Assembly (NCBI RefSeq): GCF_041379045.1
Contig: NZ_CP166871.1
Span: 1,178,001 to 1,242,000 of the forward strand
Direction: 5' to 3'
DNA length: 64,000 nt
Source: Thalassotalea ponticola
Lineage (GTDB): Bacteria; Pseudomonadota; Gammaproteobacteria; Enterobacterales; Alteromonadaceae
The first letter of the stretch is position 1. Each line of letters begins with the position of its first letter. Under the pieces are notes generated by a model. It worked only from the letters and a program-made list of their open reading frames with translations, had not been told where the DNA came from and made no database searches. The translations under genes were made by a program, and so were the position numbers. Positions 19,509 to 50,870 of this stretch are shown piece after piece.

Positions 19509-21469
19509 TGTTCTTTTACTCCAATACTGCTGCGATGTTGGCGACGTTGTTGATATTCGAGTCGCATCTTGTTGCGTAATAATTGCTGAGGATCATCCGT
19601 TACGCGTCTGAGTAACTGTTCATATTTTTGTTGTTGCTCTAAATTTGTTTGACGCTGTTGAGCTGATAAGGCGGCGTCCTGCTGCTGACCGTCCTGTTGT
19701 TGACCGTCTTGCTGCTGACCGTCTTGCTGCTGACCGTCCTGTTGTTGACCGTCCTGTTGTTGACCGTCTTGCTTCTGACCGTCTTGCTGCTGACCATCTT
19801 GCTGCTGACCGTCTTGCTGCTGACCGTCTTGCTGCTGACCGTCTTGCTGCTGACCATCTTGCTGCTGACCACCTTGCTGCTGACCGTCTTGCTGCTGACC
19901 ATCTTGCTGCTGACCGTTTTGCTGCTGACCATCTTGCTGCTGACCATCTTGCTGTTGACCATCTTGCTGTTGACCGTCTTGTTGCTGACCGTCTTGTTGC
20001 TGACCGTCTTGCTGCTGACCGTCTTGCCGCTGACCGTCTTGCTGCTGACCGTCTTGCTGCTGACCGTCTTGCTGTTGACCGTCTTGTTGTTGCTCGTTTT
20101 GTTGTTTTAACAGTGACTCGACTAACGCTTTATTGGCTTTTGCATCTCGGTGCTCGGCATCGATATCAAGCGCTTGATTATAGGCGTCAATAGCTTGTTG
20201 TAATTGACCCAACTTGGCTAACGCATTACCTTGATTATACTTCGCGTCAGCACTTGAACCTTGGCTAAAAGCCTTGGCTGCCTGTTCGTACTGTTCAGCG
20301 CGATAATAGCTGCTGCCTTGCCACAACGGGTCGTTAAATGTTGTCGCTGCTTGTTGGTATTGCTGTTGGTTGAACTTCTGTTGTCCTTGTTGGTCTTTGG
20401 TTTGCCATAAATCATCCCACAACGAGGCTGACGCTGGTGGACTCAACAATAGTGCGCTAACCATCAGAGCGCTGAATACCGGCGTCAATAATACCCCTTT
20501 TTGAAAATAGCGAAGTAACAAGGGCATCGCCAATAACAATAAGTAGGGGCCAAACTCTTGCCATTGATCGCCTTGATTTTGTTGTTGTGTTTGCAATGAC
20601 TTTTGTGCCTCTAGTTTGCGCAGTGAACTCAGCTTTTCCAGATCGCTATCGTCTTTGGCAAAAGCGGTGTAAACACCACCTGAGTTGCGAGCAAGTGACG
20701 CCAGTCGGCTTTGGGTTAGTTTAGGGATAACGATATCGCCTTGTCTGTCTTTCATTAACTCGCCATTGGCTAAGGTAATGGGCGCACCTTGTAAGGTACC
20801 AACGCCGAGAATGTTGAGTCGATGCTCAGTGTCAGCGATAAACTCATTGATATCATCCACTTCGCCATGGCTAATACCGTCGGTAAACCAAAATATATCG
20901 CCTTCGCTGTGACCGGCATTGTTGAGCATTTCATCGGCCAACAGTAACGCCGGAAGCGGGTTAGAGCCGAGCTCAGGCATGATCTCTGGGCTTAGTGACG
21001 GCAGTAACAAGTTGATGTTATTGATATCCGCTGTTAGCGGACTGATGGTAAAGGCGTCGCCAGCATAGGCGATTAAACCGATCTCACCTTCATTAATTTT
21101 TCCGACTAAATCCATCGCCTTAAAACGAGCCATGGTCAATCGATTGGGGGTGATATCGGTGGCGAGCATCGATAAACTCATATCCATTATCAACACCGAA
21201 CCACGCTCAACTTGGTACACTGGTTGAGGTAACTTTTGCCAAGTGGGACCGGCTAAGGCGAAAATAATTAAACTTCCGGCAACCGCAGCTCCGACTAGCG
21301 ATACCGACTTTTGTTGCTCGGCACTGAGTAAATACTTGGCTAAGTGCGGTGGCAATATTTTATGCCAGGTACTACTCGACACCACCAACTTTCGCGCTTG
21401 CCACAAAAGCCATGCCAAGGCGATAAAGGCGAGTAGCCAAAATGGCCTGAGAAAATGAAAATCAGCCAT
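19502..21469 (-). CDS. Fused BatB-BatC protein: VWA domain, TPRs and DGQQQ repeats
   Basis: The 655-residue protein joins two units often encoded separately. N-terminal membrane helices (about 8-25 and 57-74) precede a von Willebrand A domain whose metal site DMSLS is at 96-100. A further membrane segment near 320-345 leads to TPR-type repeats (SSYYRAEQYEQAAKAF; AKYNQGNALAKLGQLQQAID). Residues about 458-597 are roughly 28 tandem copies of a Gln-rich pentapeptide, QQQDG, with only a few variants (QRQDG, QQQNG, QQQGG, QKQDG). The tail has a short basic helix. In the MoxR/Bat system these proteins are thought to assemble with BatA at the inner membrane. The start overlaps batA by 8 nt. Confidence 0.9.
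   Translation of the reverse strand: MADFHFLRPFWLLAFIALAWLLWQARKLVVSSSTWHKILPPHLAKYLLSAEQQKSVSLVGAAVAGSLIIFALAGPTWQKLPQPVYQVERGSVLIMDMSLSMLATDITPNRLTMARFKAMDLVGKINEGEIGLIAYAGDAFTISPLTADINNINLLLPSLSPEIMPELGSNPLPALLLADEMLNNAGHSEGDIFWFTDGISHGEVDDINEFIADTEHRLNILGVGTLQGAPITLANGELMKDRQGDIVIPKLTQSRLASLARNSGGVYTAFAKDDSDLEKLSSLRKLEAQKSLQTQQQNQGDQWQEFGPYLLLLAMPLLLRYFQKGVLLTPVFSALMVSALLLSPPASASLWDDLWQTKDQQGQQKFNQQQYQQAATTFNDPLWQGSSYYRAEQYEQAAKAFSQGSSADAKYNQGNALAKLGQLQQAIDAYNQALDIDAEHRDAKANKALVESLLKQQNEQQQDGQQQDGQQQDGQQQDGQRQDGQQQDGQQQDGQQQDGQQQDGQQQDGQQQDGQQQNGQQQDGQQQDGQQQGGQQQDGQQQDGQQQDGQQQDGQQQDGQQQDGQKQDGQQQDGQQQDGQQQDGQQQDGQQQDGQQQDAALSAQQRQTNLEQQQKYEQLLRRVTDDPQQLLRNKMRLEYQQRRQHRSSIGVKEQW
19679..20097 (-). 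repeat. 15-bp coding tandem repeat array (about 28 units) in batB-batC
   Basis: The array repeats a 15-bp word, written on the plus strand as CTGCTGACCGTCTTG with small changes. It encodes QQQDG pentapeptides in frame. Since 15 is a multiple of three, gain or loss of units keeps the reading frame. Synonymous variants (CTG or TTG, GTC or ATC) are mixed along the array. Confidence 0.95.
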
Positions 21470-37839: not shown

Positions 37840-38625
37840 ATGAGTGTTGCTATTGATATCCACGAGTTGCAATTTCGCTGGTCAGAAAGTGCAGATCACC
37901 TCCTTGCCATTGACCGTTTAACCATAGCGCAAGGCGAAAAGGTGTTTTTATATGGCCCCAGTGGCAGTGGAAAAACCACGCTGCTGAGCTTACTCTGCGG
38001 TATTAACTCAGTACAGTCAGGGCAACTTACATTACTCAACACTGATCTGTCTTTGTTGACAGCTAGCCAACGCGATCAGTTTCGCGCTGACCACCTCGGT
38101 GTCATTTTTCAGATGTTTAATCTTATCCCGTACTTAACCAGTATCGAAAACGTGTTGCTGGCGGTGCAATTTTCCGCATCGCGCAAACAAAACGCGATAG
38201 CCAAGTCGGGGTCGCTGCTCAACGAGGCAAAACGCTTACTGAAGCATTTAGATATGGCTGATGATACGCTGCTCAACAAGCCGGTAAATCAACTCAGTAT
38301 TGGTCAGCAACAGCGGGTGGCTGTTGCCAGAGCGTTGATGGGATCGCCAAAAATTATTATTGCTGATGAGCCAACCTCGTCGCTTGACGCACAGCGATGT
38401 GAGGGCTTTTTACAGCTGCTGGCCAACGAGTGCCAAGCACTTGGGGCTACCTTGATCTTTGTCAGTCACGATTTGCGCTTACAACACGGCTTCGATCGCG
38501 TCTTTAGCTTAGTATCAAGCACTGAACACGCGGGTTTAACTCGGGTACGGTTAGAGCTCAAAGGGCAACCAATGACCGCTGACGACAACGCACTATCGCC
38601 GTTAAGCCCAGGTAATGACAGATGA
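37840..38625 (+). CDS. ABC transporter ATP-binding protein (MacB/LolD type)
   Basis: The protein (261 residues from 37840) has Walker A GPSGSGKTT, a Q-loop in GVIFQMFNLIPYLTSIENV, the ABC signature NQLSIGQQQRVAVARAL, Walker B IIIADEPTSSLD and an H-loop in FVSHDLRLQ. These are features of the MacB/LolD/FtsE class that works with FtsX-like permeases. An in-frame ATG at 37828 is a possible alternative start; neither has a clear ribosome site. The permease gene overlaps its stop by 4 nt. With the downstream DUF3299 gene it forms a three-gene operon, possibly metal-linked. Confidence 0.9.
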   Translation: MSVAIDIHELQFRWSESADHLLAIDRLTIAQGEKVFLYGPSGSGKTTLLSLLCGINSVQSGQLTLLNTDLSLLTASQRDQFRADHLGVIFQMFNLIPYLTSIENVLLAVQFSASRKQNAIAKSGSLLNEAKRLLKHLDMADDTLLNKPVNQLSIGQQQRVAVARALMGSPKIIIADEPTSSLDAQRCEGFLQLLANECQALGATLIFVSHDLRLQHGFDRVFSLVSSTEHAGLTRVRLELKGQPMTADDNALSPLSPGNDR

Positions 38626-40013
38626 CAATTACTAACCTTGCCCTAAAGAGTTTTCGCAACAGAAAAACCAGTATATTGCTTACCGTCTTGTCAATAGCGT
38701 TAAGCGTTGCTCTGCTACTGACTATTGAGAAAGTGCGGGTTCAAACGAAACAAAGTTTTACCAGTACCATATCCGCTACCGATTTAATTGTTGGCTCTAG
38801 AACCAGTCAAATTAACTTGCTCCTGTCATCGGTATTTCAAATGGGAACGCCAACTCAGGCAATTAGCTATCACTCTTATCAGCATTTTAGTGACCAGCCG
38901 ATGGTTAAGTGGAGTATCCCGTTTTCCCTTGGTGATAGTCACAAAAGTTACAAGGTGATCGGCACGACTGAACAGTTTTTTGAACATTACAAATACGGTG
39001 AACGACAATCACTGAATATGCGAAAAGGTCACTGGTTCGCGCAACCGACACACGTGGTACTCGGTGCTGATGTCGCCAAAAAATTGAATTACCAAGTCAG
39101 TGACACGGTGATTTTATCACACGGAAGTGGCAACAGTTATTTGCACCATCAACACCACCCCTTTACGGTGGTGGGGGTTTTGGCGCCAACGGCAACGCCC
39201 GTTGATCGCAGCTTGTTTATATCGCTCACCGGCATGGATAATTTACACCAGCAACAACCCCACAACGCTGTCCCAGCCGATCCGTTTGCGGTGCTGCAAG
39301 GCAATGATACAGCAGTTAATGTGCAACAAAACGGCACCAAGAGCCAAGACTCAAAACACCAGCACCTAGATCATCAACACCGATTAACGGACCACTCGCA
39401 TGAGCACGTCGAAGCCTTGAATAAAACGTCAACTTCGGCGGCTTTAGGCACTTATCCAACCAATAATATCAGTGGCTTTTACTTAGGGTTACATGAACGA
39501 CCATCGGTTTTGGCAATGATGCAAGGCATAAATCAATATGAAAATGAGCCATTATTAGCGATAATGCCGGGCGTGGCATTACTTGAATTATGGTCATTGC
39601 TCAGTATCGTTGAAAAAGCCTTAATCGCCATATCGCTGGTGGTGGTGGTAATTTCTTTGGCATCGATGTTGATTATTTTACTCAACAGTTTAAATCAGCG
39701 TCGTCGTGAAATGGCGGTGTTGCGTGCCATAGGTGCCAAACCGCGACATATATTTTCACTGCTGATGGTCGAAGCAGCATGTATGATAGTCGCGGGGATT
39801 GTCAGTGGTGTACTGTTGGTTTATGGCGCACTCGTCACACTCAAGCCCTTGGTGCTTGATCATTTTGGCGTATACCTTACCGCCAATATGTTATCACCCT
39901 ACGAGTGTTGGCTGTTGCTGGCCATAGCAACTACGGCAATGCTAATTAGCTTAGTACCGGGTTTTCAGTTATATCGTTACGCTTTAACCGATGGTATGTC
40001 GGTGCGTAATTAG
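38622..40013 (+). CDS. FtsX/MacB-type ABC permease with a His-rich periplasmic segment
   Basis: The 463-residue protein has one N-terminal membrane helix (about 14-32), a large periplasmic domain (about 35-320) and three C-terminal helices forming the FtsX domain, including RRREMAVLRAIGAKPRHIFSL, starting at RRREMAVLRAIGA. The periplasmic part contains a His cluster near residues 245-265 (HQHLDHQHRLTDHSHEH), unusual for this family and suggestive of zinc or other metal binding. The gene overlaps the ATPase gene. MacB-type exporters or lipoprotein extractors share this fold, so the transported substrate is uncertain. Confidence 0.88.
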   Translation: MTITNLALKSFRNRKTSILLTVLSIALSVALLLTIEKVRVQTKQSFTSTISATDLIVGSRTSQINLLLSSVFQMGTPTQAISYHSYQHFSDQPMVKWSIPFSLGDSHKSYKVIGTTEQFFEHYKYGERQSLNMRKGHWFAQPTHVVLGADVAKKLNYQVSDTVILSHGSGNSYLHHQHHPFTVVGVLAPTATPVDRSLFISLTGMDNLHQQQPHNAVPADPFAVLQGNDTAVNVQQNGTKSQDSKHQHLDHQHRLTDHSHEHVEALNKTSTSAALGTYPTNNISGFYLGLHERPSVLAMMQGINQYENEPLLAIMPGVALLELWSLLSIVEKALIAISLVVVVISLASMLIILLNSLNQRRREMAVLRAIGAKPRHIFSLLMVEAACMIVAGIVSGVLLVYGALVTLKPLVLDHFGVYLTANMLSPYECWLLLAIATTAMLISLVPGFQLYRYALTDGMSVRN

Positions 40014-40045
40014 TCGGTTATTGCGTATTCATAAAAGGTTTTCTC

Positions 40046-40744
40046 ATGACACAGTTTTCTCATAACACCATTTGCAGTGTTTTTTTAACCGCGCTATTGC
40101 TTATTGGAGTGGTAGCACAAGTAAAGGCAATGCCTTATCAAGTGATAACGTGGGATACGCTCAACGCCCATGTTGAGCGCAAACAGTTGAGTAATCCGTT
40201 TGCCGAGATGGAAATTGATGATATTCGCAAGATGCAGCAAATTGCGATCGTTCGAGATATTAAATCCAGTGGTGAGCAGGTCGATGCGCAAACCCAAGCG
40301 TTAGCGGATACCGCTTATAAACAATTAGTGCAAAACGGTCATGATGTCGAAGGGTTATTTAAAGCTCGCGAGCAAATTATTGCGCAGCGAGAGTTAGAGT
40401 TTTCATCGACAAACCCAGAACTTGATAATGCGCGTATCCAAATGCGTGGCTTTTTATTACCACTCGAGTTTGTCGGCAAAAAAGTGTCTGAATTTTTACT
40501 GGTGCCTTATGTCGGGGCATGCATTCACGAGCCACCGCCTGCCGCAAACCAAATTGTCTACGCCAAGTTAACAACGCCAATAGAACCACCTTCACTGGGG
40601 TTATTTACTCCCATCGAAGTGAAAGGGGTGATGACTTCAGAAACACTGTCGCCAGAGTTGAGCTTGGTAGATGGTGCTAAACAAATCCCAACCAGTTATG
40701 TGTTGAATGTCGACGATATTGAGTTTATTGATCTCGATGATTAA
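40046..40744 (+). CDS. DUF3299 periplasmic protein
   Basis: The 232-residue protein has a signal peptide (cleavage probably after VKA near residue 28) and a C-terminal DUF3299 domain: MRGFLLPLEFVGKKVSEFLLV, starting at MRGFLLPLEF, then PYVGACIHEPPPAANQIVYAK. The conserved CIHxPPP segment could bind metal, but this is inference. It is the third gene of the ABC operon, 32 bp after the permease. From memory, similar ATPase/permease/DUF3299 sets occur in Vibrio zinc-uptake loci called Zrg; that link needs checking. Confidence 0.83.
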   Translation: MTQFSHNTICSVFLTALLLIGVVAQVKAMPYQVITWDTLNAHVERKQLSNPFAEMEIDDIRKMQQIAIVRDIKSSGEQVDAQTQALADTAYKQLVQNGHDVEGLFKAREQIIAQRELEFSSTNPELDNARIQMRGFLLPLEFVGKKVSEFLLVPYVGACIHEPPPAANQIVYAKLTTPIEPPSLGLFTPIEVKGVMTSETLSPELSLVDGAKQIPTSYVLNVDDIEFIDLDD

Positions 40745-40750
40745 GGCAGG

Positions 40751-40777
40751 TGCAGTACACGTTTAAGGTGTACTGCA
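40751..40777. repeat. 10-bp perfect inverted repeat after the DUF3299 gene
   Basis: TGCAGTACAC and GTGTACTGCA are separated by 7 nt. It lies between convergent genes and probably acts as a terminator hairpin, although no T-run follows. Confidence 0.5.
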
Positions 40778-40820
40778 GAGCAACTGAGCGCGATGGTGAC
40801 ATACGTCTTGGAAGAGGGCG

Positions 40821-41117
40821 TTACTCTTCCTCTTCATCAATCTCAGCAGACTTACTCGGCTTCATTTGTTTGATGTCTTTACCGTCCATTAACAGTAACA
40901 AATCGGCAAACGCACTGCGCAATTTTTGCGTAAGAGCCCGTGGAAAACGGGTGTGATTACGCGTCGCAATCGCATCTCTTGCGTATATAGACTCTAACGC
41001 TCGTTCAATTGACTCAACATTTTCTAAGTTTAAATCTGGGCCGTTAAGGTCAAGTTCTTGTTGGTACTGTTGATAAAGCTCTACTACCGTTTGTTGCACG
41101 TCTGCGAGTCTTTCCAT
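40821..41117 (-). CDS. Small acidic cytoplasmic protein of unknown function
   Basis: The 98-residue protein is predicted helical with no membrane segment. It starts MERLADVQQTVVELYQQYQQE and ends in the acidic tail AEIDEEEE. A basic patch RFPRALTQKLR lies in the middle. An AAGGGG Shine-Dalgarno lies about 7 nt before its ATG. I do not recognise a family. It is convergent with the DUF3299 gene. Confidence 0.6.
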   Translation of the reverse strand: MERLADVQQTVVELYQQYQQELDLNGPDLNLENVESIERALESIYARDAIATRNHTRFPRALTQKLRSAFADLLLLMDGKDIKQMKPSKSAEIDEEEE

Positions 41118-41447
41118 GTTAACTTCCCCTTATTAAATTAAATGAGAAATGAATTGTTTAGCGATTAAATGTTAGACAATTTTATTGTTCTTCTACCATG
41201 TAAGAAAATGGCACTAATGTAAAGCACCTCTGGGGATTATTTTTAACTCGCGCGTTGTCCCCTACATTGGCAAAAAACATCTTGGTCAATTGAGTAGGGC
41301 ACCTGTGTGACCGACGAATCTTGGTTATTTAGATATTCAGCAAACGATTGACCTTCCTTGGCGAGCAAAAAGCAGATAGCTTGGCTTGTATAATAGATAG
41401 GCATTGGTTACATTGACCAGAAAATTGTCAACAGAGATACCGTTTGT
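41118..41447. other. Intergenic region between divergent genes
   Basis: About 330 bp separate the small acidic protein gene and the acetyltransferase gene. It should carry both promoters; I see no repeat, RNA gene or clear operator in it. Confidence 0.4.
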
Positions 41448-41939
41448 ATGTTAGAAAACACAATTCGCATCGAGTTAGCACAACTTGATAATCCGCAACA
41501 TCAAGATGATTTACTGATGCTGTTAGACGCTTACGCGCAAGACCCTATGGGAGGTGCGACACCGTTGTCAGCAACAACGAAGTCGACCCTTATTGCATCG
41601 ATGCAACAGCACCCTCAAGTATTTAGTTTATTGTGTTATGTAGATGATAAACCTGCAGCTATTTGCAATTGTGTGCTTGGCTTTTCTACGTTTAAAGCCA
41701 AGCCGTTGATCAACATTCATGACATCGCTGTGCTACCTCGCTATCGAGGGTTGGGGTTAAGTCACAAATTATTAGCCAGTGTTGAGCAACAGGCAATTGA
41801 GCGAGGTTGCTGTAAATTGACATTAGAAGTTTTGCACGGCAATGAGGTAGCCAAAGCAAGTTATGCCAAATTTGGTTTTAGTGGCTATGAACTTGACCCA
41901 ACGCTAGGACGCGCAGAATTCTGGGAAAAAAACCTTTAA
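41448..41939 (+). CDS. GNAT-family N-acetyltransferase
   Basis: The 163-residue protein has the GNAT fold with the acetyl-CoA loop RYRGLGLSHKLLASVEQQA (QxxGxG/A type), preceded by the strand INIHDIAVLP and followed by LTLEVLHGNEVAKASYAKFGF, starting at LTLEVLHGNE. The substrate cannot be predicted from sequence. It is a single gene. Confidence 0.9.
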   Translation: MLENTIRIELAQLDNPQHQDDLLMLLDAYAQDPMGGATPLSATTKSTLIASMQQHPQVFSLLCYVDDKPAAICNCVLGFSTFKAKPLINIHDIAVLPRYRGLGLSHKLLASVEQQAIERGCCKLTLEVLHGNEVAKASYAKFGFSGYELDPTLGRAEFWEKNL

Positions 41940-42116
41940 ATACACAGTGGCACAATTCCGGCAGTTAATGTTGGCCGAGCAATGTTGATAATGTCATTCA
42001 GCGGCTTTACACTGCGAACACACGGTTACTCAGCATGTGTTTAATTTGATTGGATATTGCGAGTTGTGCCGCTGAATGTTTGCGTTGTTAGCTGTGTTAA
42101 CGTTAAAACGCTTGAC

Positions 42117-42557
42117 TTAAAACGAGATAGGCTTGCGACCAGTACGCTCGTTTAGCGATGGCTTTTGTGACTTTTGCTCGTTTTGTGTCCTGCGTTTTTT
42201 GGTACTCTTTGAGTGCTGACTTTTTGCTGCTTTGCTAGCTTTCGTCGCTACATTTTCTCGCTTTGGTTTCGCTTTGCGCTCAGTGTTAACGTTTACTGGC
42301 TCAATCGACTCATTTGCTTCTGCGTCGTTGTCAGCGGATAAAATTGGCATAATGGCTTCGCCATTAAACTGCACAATATCTTCAGCGTAAACTTTTTTAC
42401 GCTTTTGATACTCCACTTGACCATTTAAAAATACATATCCTTCGGCGATTACCATTTTGGCTTCACCGCCACCACCGACTAGGTTGGCAATTTTTAGCAA
42501 TTTGTATAACTCGATAGGTTGTTGCTTTACCTCTATCGCCAAAACTTCTATTTCCAT
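42117..42557 (-). CDS. S4-domain RNA-binding protein, YbcJ-like with basic tail
   Basis: The first 70 residues are an S4-type RNA-binding domain like E. coli YbcJ (IELYKLLKIANLVGGGGEAK, then VIAEGYVFLNGQVEYQKRKKV, starting at GYVFLNG). The remaining 75 residues are a low-complexity Lys/Arg/Ser-rich tail (KRENVATKASKAAKSQHSKS and on) that is absent from the short YbcJ form. Such tails often bind RNA or ribosomes non-specifically. It is encoded next to the tRNA-Val cluster on the opposite strand. Confidence 0.85.
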   Translation of the reverse strand: MEIEVLAIEVKQQPIELYKLLKIANLVGGGGEAKMVIAEGYVFLNGQVEYQKRKKVYAEDIVQFNGEAIMPILSADNDAEANESIEPVNVNTERKAKPKRENVATKASKAAKSQHSKSTKKRRTQNEQKSQKPSLNERTGRKPISF

Positions 42558-42798
42558 GGGATACTCTTTTTCACATTTGTAGTTGTTAAGTGTATCACGA
42601 GGCGATTTACCAAGGCGAGGTTATTTGGCTTGCCAGCCGCACGGCTTTGCCGTTGTGATCTGCACCGATGGCTCAGATAGAGTTATTTTAATGCGGTTTT
42701 TTAACAGAATCATGCGTTCAAGTTTGAGCAAAAAAGCTCATGATTGCTGTAAAAATAAGCGAGCGATCAAATAATCACAAAATAAATTAAAGTTGCTG

Positions 42799-42826
42799 TT
42801 GACACTCTTTACGACTCGCCTATAAT
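42799..42826 (+). promoter_or_regulatory. Near-consensus sigma-70 promoter of the tRNA-Val cluster
   Basis: Consensus TTGACA (42799-42804) and TATAAT (42821-42826) are separated by 16 bp and followed by the GC-rich discriminator ACGCCCC. This combination is typical of strong, growth-rate and ppGpp-controlled stable RNA promoters. The first tRNA begins 15 nt after the -10 box. Confidence 0.93.
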
Positions 42827-42841
42827 ACGCCCCACAACGAC

Positions 42842-42917
42842 GGACGGTTAGCTCAGTTGGGAGAGCACCGCCCTTACAAGGCGGGGGTCACTGGTTCGAG
42901 CCCAGTACCGTCCACCA
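42842..42917 (+). tRNA. tRNA-Val (anticodon UAC), copy 1
   Basis: A 76-nt tRNA with complete acceptor (GGACGGT/ACCGTCC), D, anticodon (CCGCC, loop CTTACAA, GGCGG) and T arms (ACTGG, loop TTCGAGC, CCAGT) and encoded CCA. The anticodon TAC decodes GUA and GUG. Confidence 0.98.
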
Positions 42918-42940
42918 TCGTCGTTTACCATGTTTTGAAT

Positions 42941-43016
42941 GGACGGTTAGCTCAGTTGGGAGAGCACCGCCCTTACAAGGCGGGGGTCACTGGTTCGAGC
43001 CCAGTACCGTCCACCA
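42941..43016 (+). tRNA. tRNA-Val (anticodon UAC), copy 2
   Basis: Identical in all 76 nt to copy 1, with a 23-bp spacer before it. It shares the upstream promoter. Confidence 0.98.
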
Positions 43017-43042
43017 TTTCCTTCAAAACATATCTACTTGAT

Positions 43043-43118
43043 GGACGGTTAGCTCAGTTGGGAGAGCACCGCCCTTACAAGGCGGGGGTCACTGGTTCGA
43101 GCCCAGTACCGTCCACCA
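43043..43118 (+). tRNA. tRNA-Val (anticodon UAC), copy 3
   Basis: Identical in all 76 nt to copy 1. The spacer before it (26 bp) differs from the other spacers. Confidence 0.98.
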
Positions 43119-43134
43119 TCAAGTTGTTTTCCCT

Positions 43135-43210
43135 GGACGGTTAGCTCAGTTGGGAGAGCACCGCCCTTACAAGGCGGGGGTCACTGGTTCGAGCCCAGTA
43201 CCGTCCACCA
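43135..43210 (+). tRNA. tRNA-Val (anticodon UAC), copy 4
   Basis: Identical in all 76 nt to copy 1, after a 16-bp spacer. Confidence 0.98.
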
Positions 43211-43227
43211 TAATGTCGTTTTTCCCC

Positions 43228-43303
43228 GGACGGTTAGCTCAGTTGGGAGAGCACCGCCCTTACAAGGCGGGGGTCACTGGTTCGAGCCCAGTACCGTCCA
43301 CCA
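43228..43303 (+). tRNA. tRNA-Val (anticodon UAC), copy 5
   Basis: Identical in all 76 nt to copy 1. Its 17-bp upstream spacer is nearly the same as that before copy 6, so these two arose by recent duplication. Confidence 0.98.
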
Positions 43304-43320
43304 TAACGTCGTTTCTCCCC

Positions 43321-43396
43321 GGACGGTTAGCTCAGTTGGGAGAGCACCGCCCTTACAAGGCGGGGGTCACTGGTTCGAGCCCAGTACCGTCCACCA
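43321..43396 (+). tRNA. tRNA-Val (anticodon UAC), copy 6
   Basis: Identical in all 76 nt to copy 1. It is the last intact tRNA; the degenerate repeat array starts directly after its CCA. Confidence 0.98.
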
Positions 43397-43470
43397 TGTT
43401 ATTTTTTCTTTTGTTTGTTCAATAAATCGATATCAATCGATTGTTTGTCGTATTTGAAATTTAAGTTGTT

Positions 43471-43555
43471 GGTGAATAGGTCGTTGGTGAAAAGCACCGC
43501 CCGCTCATACCAAGCCCGCACCGAGTCACTGGTTCGAGCCCAGTACCGTCCACCA
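43471..43555 (+). pseudogene. Degenerate tRNA-Val copy, unit 1
   Basis: The 85-nt copy keeps AGCACCGCCC and the last 30 nt of tRNA-Val (T arm, acceptor 3' strand, CCA; only the base just before is changed). The 5' acceptor strand (GGTGAAT) no longer pairs with ACCGTCC and the anticodon stem-loop is replaced by GCTCATACCAAGCCCGC. It shares its 5' variant with unit 4. Confidence 0.85.
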
Positions 43556-43633
43556 TGTTATTTTTTCTTTCTTTTGTTTGTTCAATAAATCGATATCAAT
43601 CGATTGTTTGTCGTATTTGAAATTTAGGTTGTT

Positions 43634-43718
43634 GGTGACTAGCTAATTGGTGAACAGCACCGCCCGCTTATACCAAGCCCGCACCGAATCACTGGTTCGA
43701 GCCCAGTACCGTCCACCA
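43634..43718 (+). pseudogene. Degenerate tRNA-Val copy, unit 2
   Basis: 85 nt, with GGTGACTAGCTAATTGG in place of the tRNA 5' part, GCTTATACCAAGCCCGC in place of the anticodon arm, and an intact 3' third. Confidence 0.85.
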
Positions 43719-43790
43719 TATTATTTTTCTTGTACTGTTAATTAAATCGATATCAATCGACTGTTTTTCGTATCTGAAATTTAGGTAGTC

Positions 43791-43875
43791 GGTGACGAGC
43801 TAATTGGTGAGCAGCACCGCCCGCTTATACCAAGCCCGCACCAAGTCACTGGTTCGAGCCCAGTACCGTCCACCA
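43791..43875 (+). pseudogene. Degenerate tRNA-Val copy, unit 3
   Basis: 85 nt behind a type B spacer. It starts GGTGACGAGCTAATTGG and keeps the exact T arm, acceptor 3' strand and CCA. Confidence 0.85.
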
Positions 43876-43953
43876 TATTATTTTTTCTTTCTTTTGTTTG
43901 TTCAATAAATCGATATCAATCGATTGTTTGTCGTATTTGAAATTTAAGTTGTT

Positions 43954-44038
43954 GGTGAATAGGTCGTTGGTGAAAAGCACCGCCCGCTCATACCAAGCCC
44001 GCACCGAATCACTGGTTCGAGCCCAGTACCGTCCACCA
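43954..44038 (+). pseudogene. Degenerate tRNA-Val copy, unit 4
   Basis: 85 nt behind a type A spacer. It is almost identical to unit 1, including the rare GAATAGGTCGTTGG variant. Confidence 0.85.
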
Positions 44039-44116
44039 TATTATTTTTTCTTTCTTTTGTTTGTTCAATAAATCGATATCAATCGATTGTTTGTCGTATT
44101 TGAAATTTAGGTAATC

Positions 44117-44201
44117 GATGACTAGCTAATTGGTGATCAGCACCGCCCGCTTATACCAAGCCCTTACCAAATCACTGGTTCGAGCCCAGTACCGTCCACC
44201 A
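44117..44201 (+). pseudogene. Degenerate tRNA-Val copy, unit 5
   Basis: 85 nt behind a type A spacer, but its tRNA-like part (GATGACTAGC start, GCCCTTACCAAA variant) matches unit 6, which has a type B spacer. This marks it as a recombinant. Confidence 0.85.
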
Positions 44202-44274
44202 TATTATTTTTCTTTTGCTTGTTAATTAAATCGATATCAATCGACTGTTTTTCGTATCTGAAATTTAGGTAATC

Positions 44275-44359
44275 GATGACTAGCTAATTGGTGATCAGCA
44301 CCGCCCGCTTATACCAAGCCCTTACCAAATCACTGGTTCGAGCCCAGTACCGTCCACCA
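44275..44359 (+). pseudogene. Degenerate tRNA-Val copy, unit 6
   Basis: 85 nt behind a type B spacer, with the GCCCTTACCAAA variant. The 3' third is intact with CCA. Confidence 0.85.
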
Positions 44360-44432
44360 TATTATTTTTCTTTTGCTTGTTAATTAAATCGATATCAATC
44401 GACTGTTTTTCGTATCTGAAATTTAGGTAGTC

Positions 44433-44517
44433 GGTTACTAGCTAATTGGTGATCAGCACCGCCCGCTTATACCAAGCCCGCACCGAATCACTGGTTCGAG
44501 CCCAGTACCGTCCACCA
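44433..44517 (+). pseudogene. Degenerate tRNA-Val copy, unit 7
   Basis: 85 nt behind a type B spacer, starting GGTTACTAGC. This is the last copy with T arm and CCA. Confidence 0.85.
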
Positions 44518-44589
44518 TATTATTTTTCTTGTACTGTTAATTAAATCGATATCAATCGACTGTTTGTCGTATCTGAAATTTAGGTAGTC

Positions 44590-44619
44590 GGTGACTAGCT
44601 AATTGGTGATCAGCACCGC
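44590..44619 (+). pseudogene. Truncated tRNA-Val copy, unit 8
   Basis: Only the first 30 nt (GGTGACTAGC to AGCACCGC) remain. The similarity stops abruptly and unrelated sequence leads to gltX, which marks the array boundary. Confidence 0.8.
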
Positions 44620-44884
44620 ATGACTAATCAAATTCGAGTAAGGTGCGCCGAATTTACGGTGTTCATGCCAGTTTTAAGCACCGTTGATGACTCACGCTAT
44701 GACCTCGTTTACTTTAAGGTATATGACTGTTTGCTGTTTTCTCTGCTTGTGCTGTTATCGAGTGCTTTATAGGTGAATTTATTGGTTCTTGGTGCTAGAA
44801 TACCTGCCAATTTCTATAGACTGTATTTTCTTGATTTTGCGTTGGTTTATCTGCGCAAAAATTGAGCCACAAAGCGAGATAAAT

Positions 44885-46294
44885 ATGACGACAACCCGTT
44901 TTGCCCCAAGCCCTACAGGTTACTTACACGTTGGTGGTGCGCGTACCGCACTATACAGCTGGTTATACGCGAAAAAAACCGGCGGTGATTTTGTTTTACG
45001 TATCGAAGACACAGATTTAGAACGTTCTACACAAGAGTCTGTTGATGCCATTATGGATGGTATGAATTGGTTGAAATTGGACTGGGATCAAGGTCCGTTT
45101 TTTCAAACCCATCGTTTTGACCGTTACAAAGAAGTTATTGCTCAGTTGCTAGAGGCTGGTCATGCGTATCGCTGTTACTGTACACCTGAAGAAGTTGAGG
45201 CGATGCGTGAAGAAGCAATGGCAAAGGGAGAGAACCCGCGTTACAACGGCATGTGGCGTGATCGCACTGATCATCCAACCGATAAGCCGTTTGTTATCCG
45301 CTTTAAAAACCCACTAGACGGCAGCGTAGTGATTGATGACATAGTCAAAGGTCGTATTGAAATTGCCAATACGGAGTTAGACGACTTAATTATCGCTCGC
45401 TCAGATGGATCGCCGACGTATAACCTAACCGTTGTCGTTGACGATTGGGATATGGGCATTACCCATGTTATCCGCGGTGATGACCATGTGAATAACACCC
45501 CGCGCCAAATCAATATTTTAAAAGCACTAGGTGCTCCGCTTCCACAATACGCTCACATTCCAATGATCTTGGGTGATGACGGCAAGCGATTGTCTAAGCG
45601 TCACGGTGCGGTAAGCGTTATGCAATATCGCGACGAAGGCTATCTTCCAGAGGCACTGTTAAATTACTTAGTGCGCTTGGGTTGGTCACATGGCGATCAA
45701 GAGATTTTCTCTCGTGAAGAAATGATCAACTTGTTTGACTTAACTGGCTGTAATCGCGCACCAAGTGCGTTTAATACCGACAAGCTGATTTGGGTTAACC
45801 AGCACTACATTAAAACGTTGGATGCGCAGTATGTTGCCGAGCACTTGGATTGGCATATGGCAGATCAAAATATTGATACCACTAATGGTCCGGCATTAGC
45901 TGACGTAGTAAAAGTGCAAGCCGATCGCGTTAAAACTCTGAAAGAAATGGCGCAGATTTCTCGCTACTTTTATGAAGAGTACAGTGAGTTTGACGCCAAT
46001 GCAGCGAAAAAGCACCTACGCGGTGTGGCCAAGCAACCACTGGCATTAGTGCAAACTAAGTTAGCGGCATTAACCGATTGGACCGCTGAAAACATTCATG
46101 CCGCCATCAATGACAGTGCCGCAGAGCTTGAGGTGGGGATGGGTAAAGTAGGCATGCCACTTCGCGTTGCGGCAACTGGTGGTGGTAACTCACCATCTCT
46201 TGATGTGACATTGGCATTGCTTCAACAAGACCAAGTTGTGGCTCGCATTGACAAAGCGCTTGCGTTTATCGCCGAGCGTGAAGCCAATGCGTAA
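44885..46294 (+). CDS. gltX: Glutamyl-tRNA synthetase
   Basis: GltX charges tRNA-Glu with glutamate. The 469-residue class I enzyme starts [21 protein letters not shown], whose core is [14 protein letters not shown] with the HIGH-type motif; an in-frame extension to 44789 has no family similarity. The KMSKS-type motif is [12 protein letters not shown]. Also present are IEDTDLERS and the zinc-region residues CYCTPEEVE. Position beside a tRNA-Val cluster is conserved in E. coli and relatives. A 265-bp leader separates it from the truncated last repeat. Confidence 0.96.
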
Positions 46295-46317
46295 TCACAT
46301 CTGAACGCTGTGCTAAA

Positions 46318-46350
46318 AAAGGGCTATGAATGATAAATTCATAGCCCTTT
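46318..46350 (+). terminator. Intrinsic terminator after gltX
   Basis: A 14-bp perfect stem (AAAGGGCTATGAAT and its complement) with a 5-nt loop ends in TTTGTTG. It lies 24 bp after the gltX stop and may work in both directions. Confidence 0.85.
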
Positions 46351-46598
46351 GTTGTTTAGACGTGGTTGAGCTAAAAGCGAAAGTGACTAGAGCACGTCAC
46401 TTTACTATTTATCCGCTTTAAAGCCGCTCGACATACCCGTCGGTGTTGTTACTCGAATTGATTAACTAATTGCTGACGATCTAACAGCGACCGATAACAA
46501 CGAGTTAGCTGCATATCTCTGGTAAGTTAGTTTTATATCCTGAACCCAAAGTTACAGAATCGGTGACTGCGTTTAATATCCAACCTGATGGTGAGATG

Positions 46599-46615
46599 GA
46601 GGGGCATAGCCCCTC
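46599..46615 (-). terminator. Hairpin after the beta-barrel protein gene
   Basis: A GAGGGGC/GCCCCTC stem with loop ATA sits directly beyond the stop codon of the 46619 gene on the minus strand. There is no T-run, so its strength is doubtful. Confidence 0.5.
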
Positions 46616-46618
46616 GAA

Positions 46619-47278
46619 TTAAAATGACCAATGAATCGATACTTCATATGAATCGATGTCATCTTGCCATTCATAACCTAAGCCGAATGAGATATTCGAA
46701 AACAGGTGAAATTGCGAACCCAGGTTAACAAAAACGTCGTTGTCCCACACCTCGCGATAACCTATCGAACCAGAAAGTTCGACTGAATCGGAAATCATAG
46801 AGCGAAGCCCCGTTGAAAATAACACGCCATTATCACTGACACTACTTTCGAGGCCTCTGGTCGATACCTCTATCTCTTCGCGGTTATAAGCCAAAATATT
46901 GACCCAATCGGTATTATCAAATACTCGATACTTATAACCAAGCCCAACGCGTAAATCATCCAGCGTTGAATCTACTGTTGCTCGTTGCGTCACGTCATCC
47001 ATGACTACGAAAGAGCTAAAGCTGTCTTTTACCCTTTTGTATGAACCGGTAAACAGCACGTTTTCACTGAGCAATGCCGTCGCGTGAATACGAAAACCTT
47101 TGTAGCTATCACTGTTACTTAGCTCGGTTTGTGTGTACGATGCACCAACCTGATCCCATGGTATTTGCGTGCTTGCACATGCGTGCCCGATATTCAGAGA
47201 TAATACTGTCGCGGCAATAAAAGATGCTTTGATTTCCATTCTCATTTCGTTTTTGACTCCTGTATTTTGGTCATTCAT
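46619..47278 (-). CDS. Small outer-membrane beta-barrel-like protein of unknown function
   Basis: The protein has a signal peptide (ATVLSLNIGHACA, cleavage near residue 35 of the longest form) and a mature part of about 185 residues rich in alternating strands. It ends in SIHWSF, with the C-terminal Phe typical of outer-membrane barrels. The pattern of 8-10 strands resembles OmpA-like or OmpW-like small barrels. The true start may be at 47245 (MRMEIKASFIAATVL). No family was recognised. Neighbouring genes give no clue to its role. Confidence 0.68.
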   Translation of the reverse strand: MNDQNTGVKNEMRMEIKASFIAATVLSLNIGHACASTQIPWDQVGASYTQTELSNSDSYKGFRIHATALLSENVLFTGSYKRVKDSFSSFVVMDDVTQRATVDSTLDDLRVGLGYKYRVFDNTDWVNILAYNREEIEVSTRGLESSVSDNGVLFSTGLRSMISDSVELSGSIGYREVWDNDVFVNLGSQFHLFSNISFGLGYEWQDDIDSYEVSIHWSF

Positions 47279-47530
47279 GTCAAATTTAAACTTCCATATT
47301 CACCTTATTTTTTTTGCGTAAAAATGTCAATAAATTTATATAAAACAATGGTTTATGTTGAGTTGTTGAAGGGGTGTTCTATGAGGTGTGCAGGGGGAAG
47401 GTGATAAACCAAATATCAGCAAAAGTGAATCGGCGAGAGTGAACCGAGCAGGCATTTGATGCGCTTGCTACCATGTTGACCTGACTTTTGCTCACTAACG
47501 GGCACAAGTAGACCGAAAGCGACCGTATGG

Positions 47531-47983
47531 TTAACGCCTTTGCTCATTGATGACACGGAAATACTGTTGCACGGCATGACTTCTAAACAGGTAATACCAT
47601 AATCCTGAAATCGCCGAGATAGCGATGATAATACCGATAAAGCTATCGTAGCAGAGCAGCGTGATGACAACCGCCCAAAAGGTAAAAAGAGCCCCATTTG
47701 CCCAGCGCTTTCCTTTTGCTATCGACAAACAGACATACGACATAATGGCGGCAAACACTAGCAACGCCGGAGCCATACCTGTTGACCAGAATTCAGAGTA
47801 TGAGAGTTTATTGCCGTTCAATGCGTACGTTGCATTCGGCCAAGGCCAAAATCCTAGCGTTAATACCGACAAAAACGCAATCGCAGTGACGCCATAGAGG
47901 AACTTAAAAAATTTTGGCATTTTATTCATAGATAAAAATAAGGTTTTTAAGTTGGCTAGTAGATTTTGCATAGGTTTATACAT
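47531..47983 (-). CDS. Four-helix membrane protein of unknown function
   Basis: The 150-residue product has four hydrophobic segments (about 27-45, 70-90, 95-112 and 113-131) and a basic C terminus. The start is uncertain: MNKMPKFFKFLYG (from 47929) is an alternative. Neither start has a good ribosome site. I do not recognise a family. Confidence 0.5.
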   Translation of the reverse strand: MYKPMQNLLANLKTLFLSMNKMPKFFKFLYGVTAIAFLSVLTLGFWPWPNATYALNGNKLSYSEFWSTGMAPALLVFAAIMSYVCLSIAKGKRWANGALFTFWAVVITLLCYDSFIGIIIAISAISGLWYYLFRSHAVQQYFRVINEQRR

Positions 47984-48175
47984 ACATAATTGGGTTGAAC
48001 CTGAGTGTTATTATTTCTCCTCAGGACTGTACCGATTGGCGTTACGTGCGCTAAGCGGTCATATTCCTTGCATCTATGTTCATCGTAACGATATAGACAA
48101 CAAAGTCAATTACTGTCACGGTTTGATGTTTTCACTATTTTACCTAGCTTTTAAGTGCTTGCGTAAATAGCTTGG

Positions 48176-49378
48176 CTAAGGCGCCTTCTTTTGATCGACA
48201 GACAATCGTTTATCGTGTTCTTGCTGTCTTAGCGTGGCCATAAATTTCGATTCGTTTGGTATCGATATTTGGGCTAGGGCCTGTTCTACGAAACCGCGTA
48301 AAAACGAGGCAGGGAAGCTGGCTCTAAATTTTACGAACTTGTCTTTGACAATAAACAAGTAGGTTGAACTGAATATATCTTCTTTACCTGCTTCGCTGAT
48401 CACGCCGTCAAAATACGCGCCTTGAATAGGCGTTGGCTGAGTGTCTAAATCTAGGCTAATAAATTGCGTTTGCTCAGCGTTAAAAGCCAGTGTCGGCTGC
48501 TCTGTATGCTCACTGATATATCGCTCAATTTCCGCTTGTACATTAGCGATCTCTTTATTTAATACCTGTTGGCTATTGTGCCAGCTGATCTCGCGAATGG
48601 GGTAAACAAATACGTCGACATAGTCGGCGACAAACTGCTGATGATTATAGCGCATGGTGGCACCTAACAGCGGGTTTCGATAAATGTACTTGTAGCTGGC
48701 GGCAAACTGATCAATCTGTTCGCCGAGGGTAAAGTCATCTTGATAATTACTCGATTGCAGTTTTGCAGCTAAAAATTGCGGGCCAAACCACTGGTGTTGC
48801 TGTGCGTCATTTAAAAACCGACTAACAACACTATCGGCAAATTGTGTGTTTCCTTGCTCAGGGGAATGAAACAAACTGACCGTATTGTTATGTGGCAGCT
48901 CGTAGCGTTGTGAGACCAGTTTTTGGTTGCGCCAATAAAGATTCATTTCAACGTGTATTTGGCTTTGCATGTCAATCGGGAGCAACATTAACGTCGCACC
49001 GGCAAGGGCGGCTTTGCCGATGTCTTCAACCGTTTCTTGGTAAAACCCGGCGGCGGCAATTTCCAATTGGTATTCTATGTTACTATCGCGCGGATAAACC
49101 TGTTGAAATTTATTGGCGCGTTGGAAACTGTTTAAGTAATGTGCCCAATCTACAGGCGCATACTGACAGTGATTGAGTACCGATGATTGCGCAAACTGGT
49201 CGCATTCATGTTGCAATGCGTCACTTGGTCGTGCGGCAAATAATGAAATGGGTGGCAACGACTTATTGTCGATGTGACTGGTCGATACATTATTTGACGT
49301 TGGTGTGTTAACACAGGCTGATAGTAAAACGGTTATCGCTAGCGGCAAGGCAGCGTTGGCAAATCGAGATGCGCCCAC
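48176..49378 (-). CDS. Large lipoprotein of unknown function
   Basis: The 400-residue protein has a lipoprotein signal ending in the lipobox LLSAC with Cys at residue 22. The mature part has no domain I recognise. Cys59 and Cys71 (HECDQF, NHCQYA) could form a disulfide. The region near residue 125-150 (IGKAALAGATLMLLPIDMQSQ) is amphipathic and may insert into a membrane. It is divergent from the DEAD-box helicase gene, with 157 bp between starts. Confidence 0.72.
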   Translation of the reverse strand: MGASRFANAALPLAITVLLSACVNTPTSNNVSTSHIDNKSLPPISLFAARPSDALQHECDQFAQSSVLNHCQYAPVDWAHYLNSFQRANKFQQVYPRDSNIEYQLEIAAAGFYQETVEDIGKAALAGATLMLLPIDMQSQIHVEMNLYWRNQKLVSQRYELPHNNTVSLFHSPEQGNTQFADSVVSRFLNDAQQHQWFGPQFLAAKLQSSNYQDDFTLGEQIDQFAASYKYIYRNPLLGATMRYNHQQFVADYVDVFVYPIREISWHNSQQVLNKEIANVQAEIERYISEHTEQPTLAFNAEQTQFISLDLDTQPTPIQGAYFDGVISEAGKEDIFSSTYLFIVKDKFVKFRASFPASFLRGFVEQALAQISIPNESKFMATLRQQEHDKRLSVDQKKAP

Positions 49379-49535
49379 AGGTTTTCTCTTCCTTTTTATT
49401 TATAAGGGTAACGCGAATAATATTTTTATGTCACGTAAAACATCGTTAAAATAGACATATTTATACGATTTAATGCCCTTAACCTGCGTGAATTACTTTA
49501 TAATTAGGGCAATTGATTATATTGGAGTGATTTTT

Positions 49536-50870
49536 TTGGCATTTGAACAATTTAAACTGGATCAGCGATTACTAAAAGCCGTTAACCATTTGGGCTTTGA
49601 TCAACCAACAGATATTCAGCAACAAGCCATTCCTGCCGCAATGCAAGGCCAAGACCTAATAGCCTCGTCAAAAACTGGCTCAGGTAAAACACTGGCTTAT
49701 TTGTTGCCTGCCATCCAGCGTTTACTTAGACAAAAAGCGTTATCGAAAAAAGATCCACGGGTACTTATTTTGACACCGACTCGAGAACTGGCGAAACAAG
49801 TGTTTTCGCAGTTGCGTACGGTCACTTCGGGCACCCGTTTTAAAAATGCCTTGATTCTCGGCGGTGAAAACTTTAACGACCAAGTTAAGGTATTAGATAA
49901 ATACCCTGATGTGGTCGTGGCGACCCCTGGTCGTTTAGCAGATCACTTAGCCAAAGGACTGTTTTATTTAAATGGTTTAGAGTTATTAATTCTCGATGAA
50001 GCAGATCGGATGCTCGACATGGGCTTTGCTGAACAGTTAAAACAAATTAACTTAGCCGCCGATCACCGCAAACGCCAAACCTTGTTGTTCTCTGCCACGT
50101 TAGAACATGAACAAGTGAATATTTTTGCCGATGATTTACTCAAATCGCCAAAGAGAATTGCCGTAGGTGCAATTACCAATGAACACACTGATATTACCCA
50201 GCGTTTTGTTTTATCGGATCATTTAGATCACAAGCAGGCGTTGCTAGAGCACTTTTTAACGTCAGAAAATATCAGCCAAGCCATTATCTTTACCGCAACG
50301 CGCAGCGACACCGAGCGCTTATCTGTGTTACTCAATGAACACAATATTGATGCCATCGGCTTAAGTGGCGATTTAAAACAATCGCAGCGCAATCAAATCA
50401 TGGAAAGTTTTGCCAAAGGTCAGCACAAAGTTTTAGTGACAACCGATCTCGCGTCTCGGGGATTAGATTTAAGCAACGTGTCGCATGTCTTTAATTTTGA
50501 TATGCCAAAGCATCCCGAAGAATACGTACATCGCATTGGCAGAACAGGGCGCGCAGGGGCGAAAGGCGATGCAATTTCGTTTGTGGGCCCTAAAGATTGG
50601 TACAGCTACTTAAATATTAAAGCCTTGTTGCAGCAAGACATGCCATTTTCATCGGTTGAGGGCTTAGAAGCTAAATTTAGTGGTTTAAAGGCGAAGAAGA
50701 AAGTCGCCCAAAAGTCAGCTACGAAGCAACATAGTCAAAGTAAACAGGTTAAGAAAAAACAGCCTAAGGTGAAGAAGAAAATTACCTTTGTCGACGAAGG
50801 TTTTGCCGACCTGCCGATGGTGAAAAAGAAAACTGGGAAACTAACGGATCGTGACGACGAAGAACAGTAA
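49536..50870 (+). CDS. DEAD-box RNA helicase
   Basis: The 444-residue protein contains the helicase motifs in order: Q motif (FDQPTDIQQQAIP), Walker A ASSKTGSGKT, PTRELA, TPGRLADHL, LDEADRMLDMG, SAT, the TDLASRGLDL segment and HRIGRTGRAG. A Lys-rich tail of about 75 residues follows, as in SrmB/RhlE-type helicases that help ribosome assembly or RNA decay. I place the start at a TTG (49536), because TTGGAGTGA lies just upstream and the N terminus AFEQFKLDQRLLKAV then matches the family. The closest E. coli relative by layout is SrmB. Confidence 0.92.
   Translation: MAFEQFKLDQRLLKAVNHLGFDQPTDIQQQAIPAAMQGQDLIASSKTGSGKTLAYLLPAIQRLLRQKALSKKDPRVLILTPTRELAKQVFSQLRTVTSGTRFKNALILGGENFNDQVKVLDKYPDVVVATPGRLADHLAKGLFYLNGLELLILDEADRMLDMGFAEQLKQINLAADHRKRQTLLFSATLEHEQVNIFADDLLKSPKRIAVGAITNEHTDITQRFVLSDHLDHKQALLEHFLTSENISQAIIFTATRSDTERLSVLLNEHNIDAIGLSGDLKQSQRNQIMESFAKGQHKVLVTTDLASRGLDLSNVSHVFNFDMPKHPEEYVHRIGRTGRAGAKGDAISFVGPKDWYSYLNIKALLQQDMPFSSVEGLEAKFSGLKAKKKVAQKSATKQHSQSKQVKKKQPKVKKKITFVDEGFADLPMVKKKTGKLTDRDDEEQ

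Follow-up and report, generated by a model that had tools for sequence, protein, structure and literature searches.

Behind six identical tRNA-Val genes in the window (the whole 64,000-nt stretch of DNA analysed here) lies a tandem array of degenerate tRNA-Val units that, judged from its sequence, is of the rtT kind in plan and falls outside the Rfam RtT family. We tentatively interpret the array as a variant of rtT-type RNA modules that would form part of tRNA transcripts and be kept uniform by recombination, a reading that is possible and short of probable, with a putative function. The interpretation draws on the same layout at tRNA-Arg, tRNA-fMet and tRNA-Lys clusters, on inserts that are alike in unrelated flanks, on spacers at chance level beside a conserved module core, on fMet units with a split T loop and a hairpin before the insert, on a perfect-consensus promoter without a plus-strand terminator before gltX, and on the same plan in E. 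coli rtT. Counted against it are the diverged loop of the window, the different insert of the Lys units, weak folding, fMet units that lack a sufficient hairpin, a core likeness owed to the Colwellia-like members, strong terminators in one Arg array, and patchy presence. The array and its neighbours are laid out as follows:

42799..42826, + strand: sigma-70 promoter match, TTGACA-16-TATAAT, 12/12 (promoter scan)
42842..43396, + strand: six identical 76-nt tRNA-Val(TAC) genes, anticodon UAC, at 42842-42917, 42941-43016, 43043-43118, 43135-43210, 43228-43303 and 43321-43396 (ARAGORN, Rfam, tail count)
43397..43555, + strand: unit 1, 159 bp, module from GCACC at 43494-43555, tail at 43526-43555
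43425-43442, + strand: AT-rich inverted repeat of unit 1, AATCGAT-ATCA-ATCGATT, placed by eye
43556..43718, + strand: unit 2, 163 bp
43719..43875, + strand: unit 3, 157 bp
43876..44038, + strand: unit 4, 163 bp
44039..44201, + strand: unit 5, 163 bp
44202..44359, + strand: unit 6, 158 bp
44360..44517, + strand: unit 7, 158 bp
44518..44619, + strand: partial unit 8, 102 bp, breaking off within the module, after AGCACCGC
44885..46294, + strand: downstream gene, within the ORF 44789-46294, start codon set by eye; from its sequence, presumably the glutamyl-tRNA synthetase gene gltX

The alignment and a tail count bear out the layout given by the first-pass annotation, namely six intact tRNA-Val genes and seven units of 157-163 bp with 85-nt tRNA-like copies and an exact 30-nt tail. 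The tail, TCACTGGTTCGAGCCCAGTACCGTCCACCA, occurs 13 times, at the six gene ends and the seven complete-unit ends, and the 85-nt copies align without gaps. In these copies, 2-4 of the 7 positions of the acceptor 5' strand are paired, in agreement with the earlier estimate of about three. All 41 variable columns of the alignment lie outside the last 30 nt (P ~6e-5 under random placement). Besides the tail, the AT-rich AAATCGATATCAATCGA hairpin, CGTATYTGAAATTTA and AGCACCGCCCGCTYATACCAAGCCC are nearly invariant, giving four near-constant blocks per unit, while the pairwise identity between units is 79.8-96.2%. By eye, some units appear mosaic, and every unit has an AT-rich inverted repeat followed by a T-rich stretch.

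TRF detects the array independently (period 163, 7.8 copies). The tRNA and covariance-model scans that the first-pass annotation had called for recovered the six real tRNA-Val genes only: ARAGORN, and Rfam at its gathering score, recognised no unit, so that the units fail the cloverleaf test for a functional tRNA gene, and overlooked tRNA genes are thereby ruled out. Below the gathering score, at E up to 10 in 42500-45000, HPnc0260 matched on the minus strand at 43358-43469 (E 0.038), overlapping the start of unit 1. The whole genome assembles into a single 3.35-Mb contig, as do those of several unit-bearing relatives, which makes an assembly error unlikely; we rejected chance or an assembly artefact as the origin of the array on the strength of TRF, the single contigs, the tail counts and the loci of the relatives. 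The terminator scan scored no plus-strand terminator between the tRNA-Val genes and gltX. Pieces of the window units folded no better than shuffled sequence (z -1.36 and -0.01), and other pieces gave z values of 0.92 (cold-shock unit), -2.53 (Met), -2.44 (G010 Arg), -1.41 (Arg of the window's genome, G000) and -1.98 (real tRNA).

The comparison with relatives, also called for earlier, used a 482-base stretch of the array against 59 genomes, 48 of which matched, many in the tRNA part only. We took the 30 Val loci that best matched the unit of the window, its own locus included, and the unit-bearing share among them is no prevalence. An exact search for further occurrences of each tRNA's own terminal 10 nt gave 42 in 14 of these 30 loci, while a reversed-tail control gave 1 in 85,747 bases; one locus (L016) is doubtful, as its extra tail ends 16 nt from a contig start and may be a cut-off real tRNA, leaving a sure count of 13/30. 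The other 16 loci lack an exact-tail unit, and some of them carry altered units by eye. Units are present in named records such as Thalassotalea sp. 1_MG-2023, whose core is of the Colwellia type, Colwellia chukchiensis and a Colwellia sp.

Among nine representatives, the Val spacers are alike at the chance level (0.496 vs 0.479 when shuffled), whereas the module core of 28-29 nt is alike at 0.692 (vs 0.477 shuffled) and the tail at 0.893. The module measures 60-62 nt in these genomes, and the core shares 43-57% identity with the real tRNA. It is the Colwellia-like representatives, at 0.82-0.93 to one another, that drive the core likeness; the core of the window's genome compares with the others at 0.53-0.76 and that of G028 with the rest at 0.50-0.60. 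The nine omit G015, G010 and G042, which fitted the module pattern, and G012, which the pattern search did not cover, and the Val units of G008, G005, G006 and G007 do not fit the pattern. The first-pass annotation had reasoned that a neutral, strain-specific expansion without a conserved spacer or transcripts would make a function unlikely; between relatives the spacer is indeed not conserved, but the module between spacer and tail is. Two further arrangements were observed behind tRNA-Val genes. In G018 (L017, 1669-1930), four units spaced by 74 bp join a T-arm-like piece with the apparent end of another tRNA (..CTTCAGACCGAACCA) to the Val tail, and in G009 (L005, ~1560-1960), tandem repeats of ~118 bp have the same spacer words (TCGATA, TCTGAAATTTA) and no tRNA tail. 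The idea that TCTGAAATTTA marks a mobile-element end was dropped: TMTGRAATTTA has 14 matches in the window's own genome, four of them in the array, vs 17 control matches, and a terminator-like hairpin precedes 1 of the six non-array sites that were read.

To compare the tails with real genes, we used 36 units from 12 loci that were found without use of their own tail, and scored the 22 nt before CCACCA. The mean number of differences was 1.00 from the tRNA of the same genome and 2.77 from those of other genomes, although three differences from the own gene remain in 4/5 C. chukchiensis and 5/5 G042 units. This nearness fits a putative gene conversion by, or unequal exchange with, the real genes, or a recent origin, and together with the mosaic units it supports the part of the earlier explanation that invoked recombination anchored at the 3' end. 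(A 16-nt comparison of 42 units, with 0.57 mismatches to the own and 1.72 to other tRNAs, was discarded as circular because those units had been chosen by their own tail.) The other part, selection on a T-arm/CCA module, finds no support as a general rule: fMet units are split in the T loop, and the Val units of G005 and some of those of G008 have a disrupted T arm and retain the altered loop. The constant tail is thus explicable by recombination without selection on the T arm.

Units also occur at other genes. The extra-tail test covered the tRNA types Val, Arg ACG, Lys, Met, Tyr, Asp, Glu, Gly, Leu TAA and Cys. In the window's genome it found exact extra tails at tRNA-Arg(ACG) (5), at tRNA-Met of the fMet type by sequence (2) and at tRNA-Lys (5), which at ≤1 mismatch become 7, 5 and 5, and it found none at the Gly, Cys, Leu(TAA), Glu, Asp and second Met clusters; G002, G004 and G026 have no Arg units by this test. 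Among 395 genomes, 20 (from 9 of 52 genera) have fMet units with a split T loop, and the control matched none; 20 is a lower bound as the pattern is strict, and G059, G307 and G317 among these carry another kind of insert. Of 21 scored fMet units, 13 have a hairpin of at least 5 pairs directly before the insert, in differing registers and using the same copied strand, which suggests that a hairpin is kept there; the other 8 fall short of the criterion, one through a parsing error (G017Met 241). The scan scored eight terminators in the Arg array of G010, against 1.8 for shuffled sequence: one follows the last tRNA, and each unit has one of its own. With a strong terminator before each of them, these units may be little transcribed. 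A related species, G004, has units behind a cold-shock protein (csp) gene (Pfam CSD, E 1e-29; L058, 1138-1600). These are tandem copies of the 3' end of the gene, with three inserts GCTAATACAAGAGC located 3' of it, of which inserts 1 and 2 are followed by the gene's last codons, its stop and an apparent terminator, while the third breaks off right after; the insert in the csp coding end is the same loop insert as in the pseudo-tRNA units. By the scan's criteria the csp array has no terminator. Elsewhere in the window's genome, an orphan tRNA-Pro 3' end (L054, G000:C1:1670701) lies ~18.8 kb from an intact tRNA-Pro(GGG) (G000:C1:1689488) and has the same 25-nt end, as an integrated element would leave.

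The inserts, about 8-15 nt long in these arrays, replace the anticodon loop in Val and Arg units and split the T loop after GTTC in fMet units. Arrays at Arg, fMet, Val and csp genes, taken from different species of the genus, have inserts with CTAATACAAGA in common, in unrelated flanks. In the window's genome, the Arg and Met inserts both have it, some Arg copies reading CTAATATAAGA, and exact sharing is confined to these two; the window's own Val loop is GCTYATACCAAG, a diverged form, and the Lys units have a different insert, GTTAACGCAA. In pairs, the inserts share 11 nt (Met/Arg), 13 nt (Met/csp, Met/Val, Arg/csp, Arg/Val) or 15 nt (csp/Val), the compared inserts (Met and Arg from the window's genome, csp from G004, Val from G008) having been hand-picked after the likeness was noticed; a common 11-mer turned up 9 times when random window pairs of insert size were drawn 100000 times. 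Val, Met, Arg and Lys units follow a loose common loop consensus; rows that were chance tails, such as position 6369 of L040, were excluded from the reading of the units. A weaker case of sharing is seen in a second genus (G017), with CTCTTTACAG in Val and CTCTTTGCAAAA in Met units.

Of the 17 exact CTAATAYAAGA sites in the window's own genome, 14 belong to array units, 7 to Arg and 7 to Met, and the idea of a genome-wide site was rejected for this genome. Across 395 genomes of the family, GCTAATACAAGWRC occurs at 90 places, 30 of them in the 15 genomes of the genus, where the 25 places that were read are all in arrays, and 60 in the 380 others, where they are scattered singles, never two per contig, near the control level (controls: about 48 in all, 2 within the genus). 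A looser pattern, CGCTNATNCMAR, stayed below twice its controls in 8/10 genomes among the matches listed, and one pair of its matches in G010 led to the Arg array (L133). By eye, we considered and set aside a derivation of the loop from the Val anticodon loop, which leaves the fMet T-loop site unexplained, and a pairing of the loop with the Tyr anticodon.

The first-pass annotation knew of no named system with this layout, which overlooked the rtT repeats behind tyrV in E. coli (Rfam RF00391 RtT, RttR RNA). These are likewise tandem units beside tRNA genes that end in the tRNA 3' end with CCA, and likewise consist of copied tRNA sequence with one loop, the T loop, split by an insert. They differ in the insert, which in rtT is ~60 nt long and hairpin-rich, whereas that of the present arrays is ~8-15 nt (short and in the anticodon loop in the window's Val units, short and in the T loop in fMet units), and in location, as rtT sits behind tyrT-tyrV while the present arrays lie at several tRNA families and a csp gene. 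In our positive control, E. coli K-12 tyrT-tyrV, there were four exact extra tRNA-Tyr tails and four RtT matches at 133-138 bits. The RtT model (gathering score 45 bits) had no match in 42500-45000 of the window at E up to 10. On 11 loci at E up to 0.5, it matched K-12 and a G028 locus (L128) only, and no locus of the window's genus; the G028 unit scored 26.2 bits, below the threshold of 45 (E 0.33), and the Lys unit of G026 was not reported. By eye, the Arg units of G028 and this Lys unit have long, multi-hairpin inserts in the T loop, as rtT does, and these include a CCC-loop-GGG hairpin.

To our knowledge, the role of rtT has been unclear ever since the repeats were described. Two other RNAs bear comparison. 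3'ETS-leuZ, a spacer RNA of an E. coli tRNA precursor that titrates small RNAs, resembles the array in being a spacer of a tRNA transcript that acts in trans, as we suppose here for the units; we know of no tandem array of pseudo-tRNAs in it. YrlA (Y RNA-like, RF02553) is a tRNA-like RNA module, and differs in that its only matches in the window are sub-threshold, across neighbouring real tRNAs and none to the units. Our literature search found no account of the present arrays, a weak negative, as most subscription papers lie outside its reach. For Actinobacillus, RtT candidates are reported next to tRNA-Asn and tRNA-Lys genes, and rtT RNA is described as being freed from tRNA operons when the tRNAs are processed (PMC4986893); read counts are given for four RtT copies in an E. 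coli O157:H7 strain (PMC5331693), and a tandem GA motif in RtT is mentioned (PMC7657543). E. coli SK1144 (L113), by the exact test, has no extra tRNA-Tyr tails of the kind seen in K-12 (L114), and a desaturase gene lies directly behind its second tRNA-Tyr gene.

For an rtT-type module, we propose the following course. As we read the sequence, the 3' end of a gene would have been duplicated, downstream of the identical tRNA genes here and between them in other clusters; the copy would have kept little of its 5' part, and a short element would have taken the place of one hairpin loop, GCTYATACCAAG here and the portable CGCTAATACAAGARC in the other arrays of the genus. Unequal recombination would then multiply the unit and hold its tail close to the real tRNA gene. 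The units would be transcribed from the tRNA promoter, and ordinary tRNA processing enzymes could release them as small RNAs with a tRNA-like 3' end. Selection might act on the loop because a shared partner, either a protein or a small RNA, binds there, and the array might serve as a decoy or sponge whose dose tracks tRNA synthesis; no partner of the loop came to light. A bolder version, more speculative again, is that one portable loop (CGCUAAUACAAGARC in the genus, with relatives in sister genera) was adopted into degenerate tRNA-Val, -Arg and -fMet and cold-shock 3' ends, with a related form at tRNA-Lys, the arrays forming genus-wide, transcript-embedded tandem decoys for one RNA-binding partner and rtT belonging to a larger class as one of its branches.

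Chief among the rivals is a by-product of recombination that has no function: identical tandem tRNA genes recombine unequally and leave 3'-end copies behind, gene conversion keeps the shared end, and templated DNA repair carried the loop between arrays on one or a few occasions. The nearness of the tails to the tRNA of their own genome, the mosaic units seen by eye, the patchy presence and copy number, and the several identical genes in the affected clusters all agree with it, but the non-tRNA core is alike between genera where the spacers are at chance, units of four tRNA families (Val, Met, Arg and Lys) repeat a loose loop consensus, and the csp array is no tRNA locus. The conserved core and the csp array are not readily explained in this way, and we consider such a by-product somewhat unlikely. 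The sharing of an 11-15-nt core by four unrelated gene ends would also be expected of a selfish sequence, with loop and hairpin as the mark of a small mobile element whose targets are the 3' ends of strongly transcribed genes and which, like integrative elements at tRNA genes, rebuilds the end of the gene that it enters. The units do restore a gene 3' end, together with a terminator in the Arg and csp arrays (by eye, and by scan for G010 Arg). However, the Val module pattern has no match in viral contigs, nor have window units 2-3 in phages and plasmids; the inserts are short with no duplicated target seen, the gene sequence runs on at both sides of the insert, and the test for an integrative attachment array yielded no recombinase by eye among ORFs of ≥80 aa from 38000 to 50000. 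We regard a mobile element as distinctly unlikely. Taken together, the arrays look more like a recurring RNA part, of putative function, than random debris.

There are two further rivals. Units acting as serial terminators or pause sites would insulate gltX from the strong tRNA promoter, a role that the terminators of the G010 Arg array and the inverted repeat before a T-rich stretch in every window unit would suit; as the scan found no plus-strand terminator in the window array and none in the csp array, and as the kept module and loop and the sharing of the loop are left unexplained, this is very unlikely. The loop could also be a boxA-like Nus factor site that shields long untranslated tRNA transcripts from Rho. 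The Val loop of C. chukchiensis reads TGCTCTTTACAAC, which we take to be boxA minus one A, and the similarity over 34 inserts, picked by hand as were the modules compared, exceeds that to shuffled motifs (p 0.0075). This excess is carried by 12 inserts from outside the genus (p 0.0015), but in the window's genus the 22 inserts do not go beyond shuffled motifs (p 0.10), nor do the 20 inserts outside Val (p 0.16), and the intact tRNA-Lys loop scores 8.0, above 31/34 inserts. The window's genome has 9 canonical TGCTCTTTAACA, of which the 4 that were read lie in apparent rRNA operons, and a pattern linking boxA to a 16S start found nothing in 5 genomes. A boxA-like site therefore appears highly improbable.

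If the rtT-type reading is right, many arrays of the rtT plan behind several tRNA families would turn an oddity of E. coli into a comparative system, built of sequence that ARAGORN and Rfam overlook. The short common loop shows where to look, and a binding partner could be sought with the 15-nt loop. Apart from the array, TRF detects a 15-bp tandem repeat of 27.5 copies at 19675-20086 of the window, which on the minus strand gives rise to the (QQQDG)n tract of a 655-aa ORF; by eye, this ORF resembles a VWA/TPR protein.
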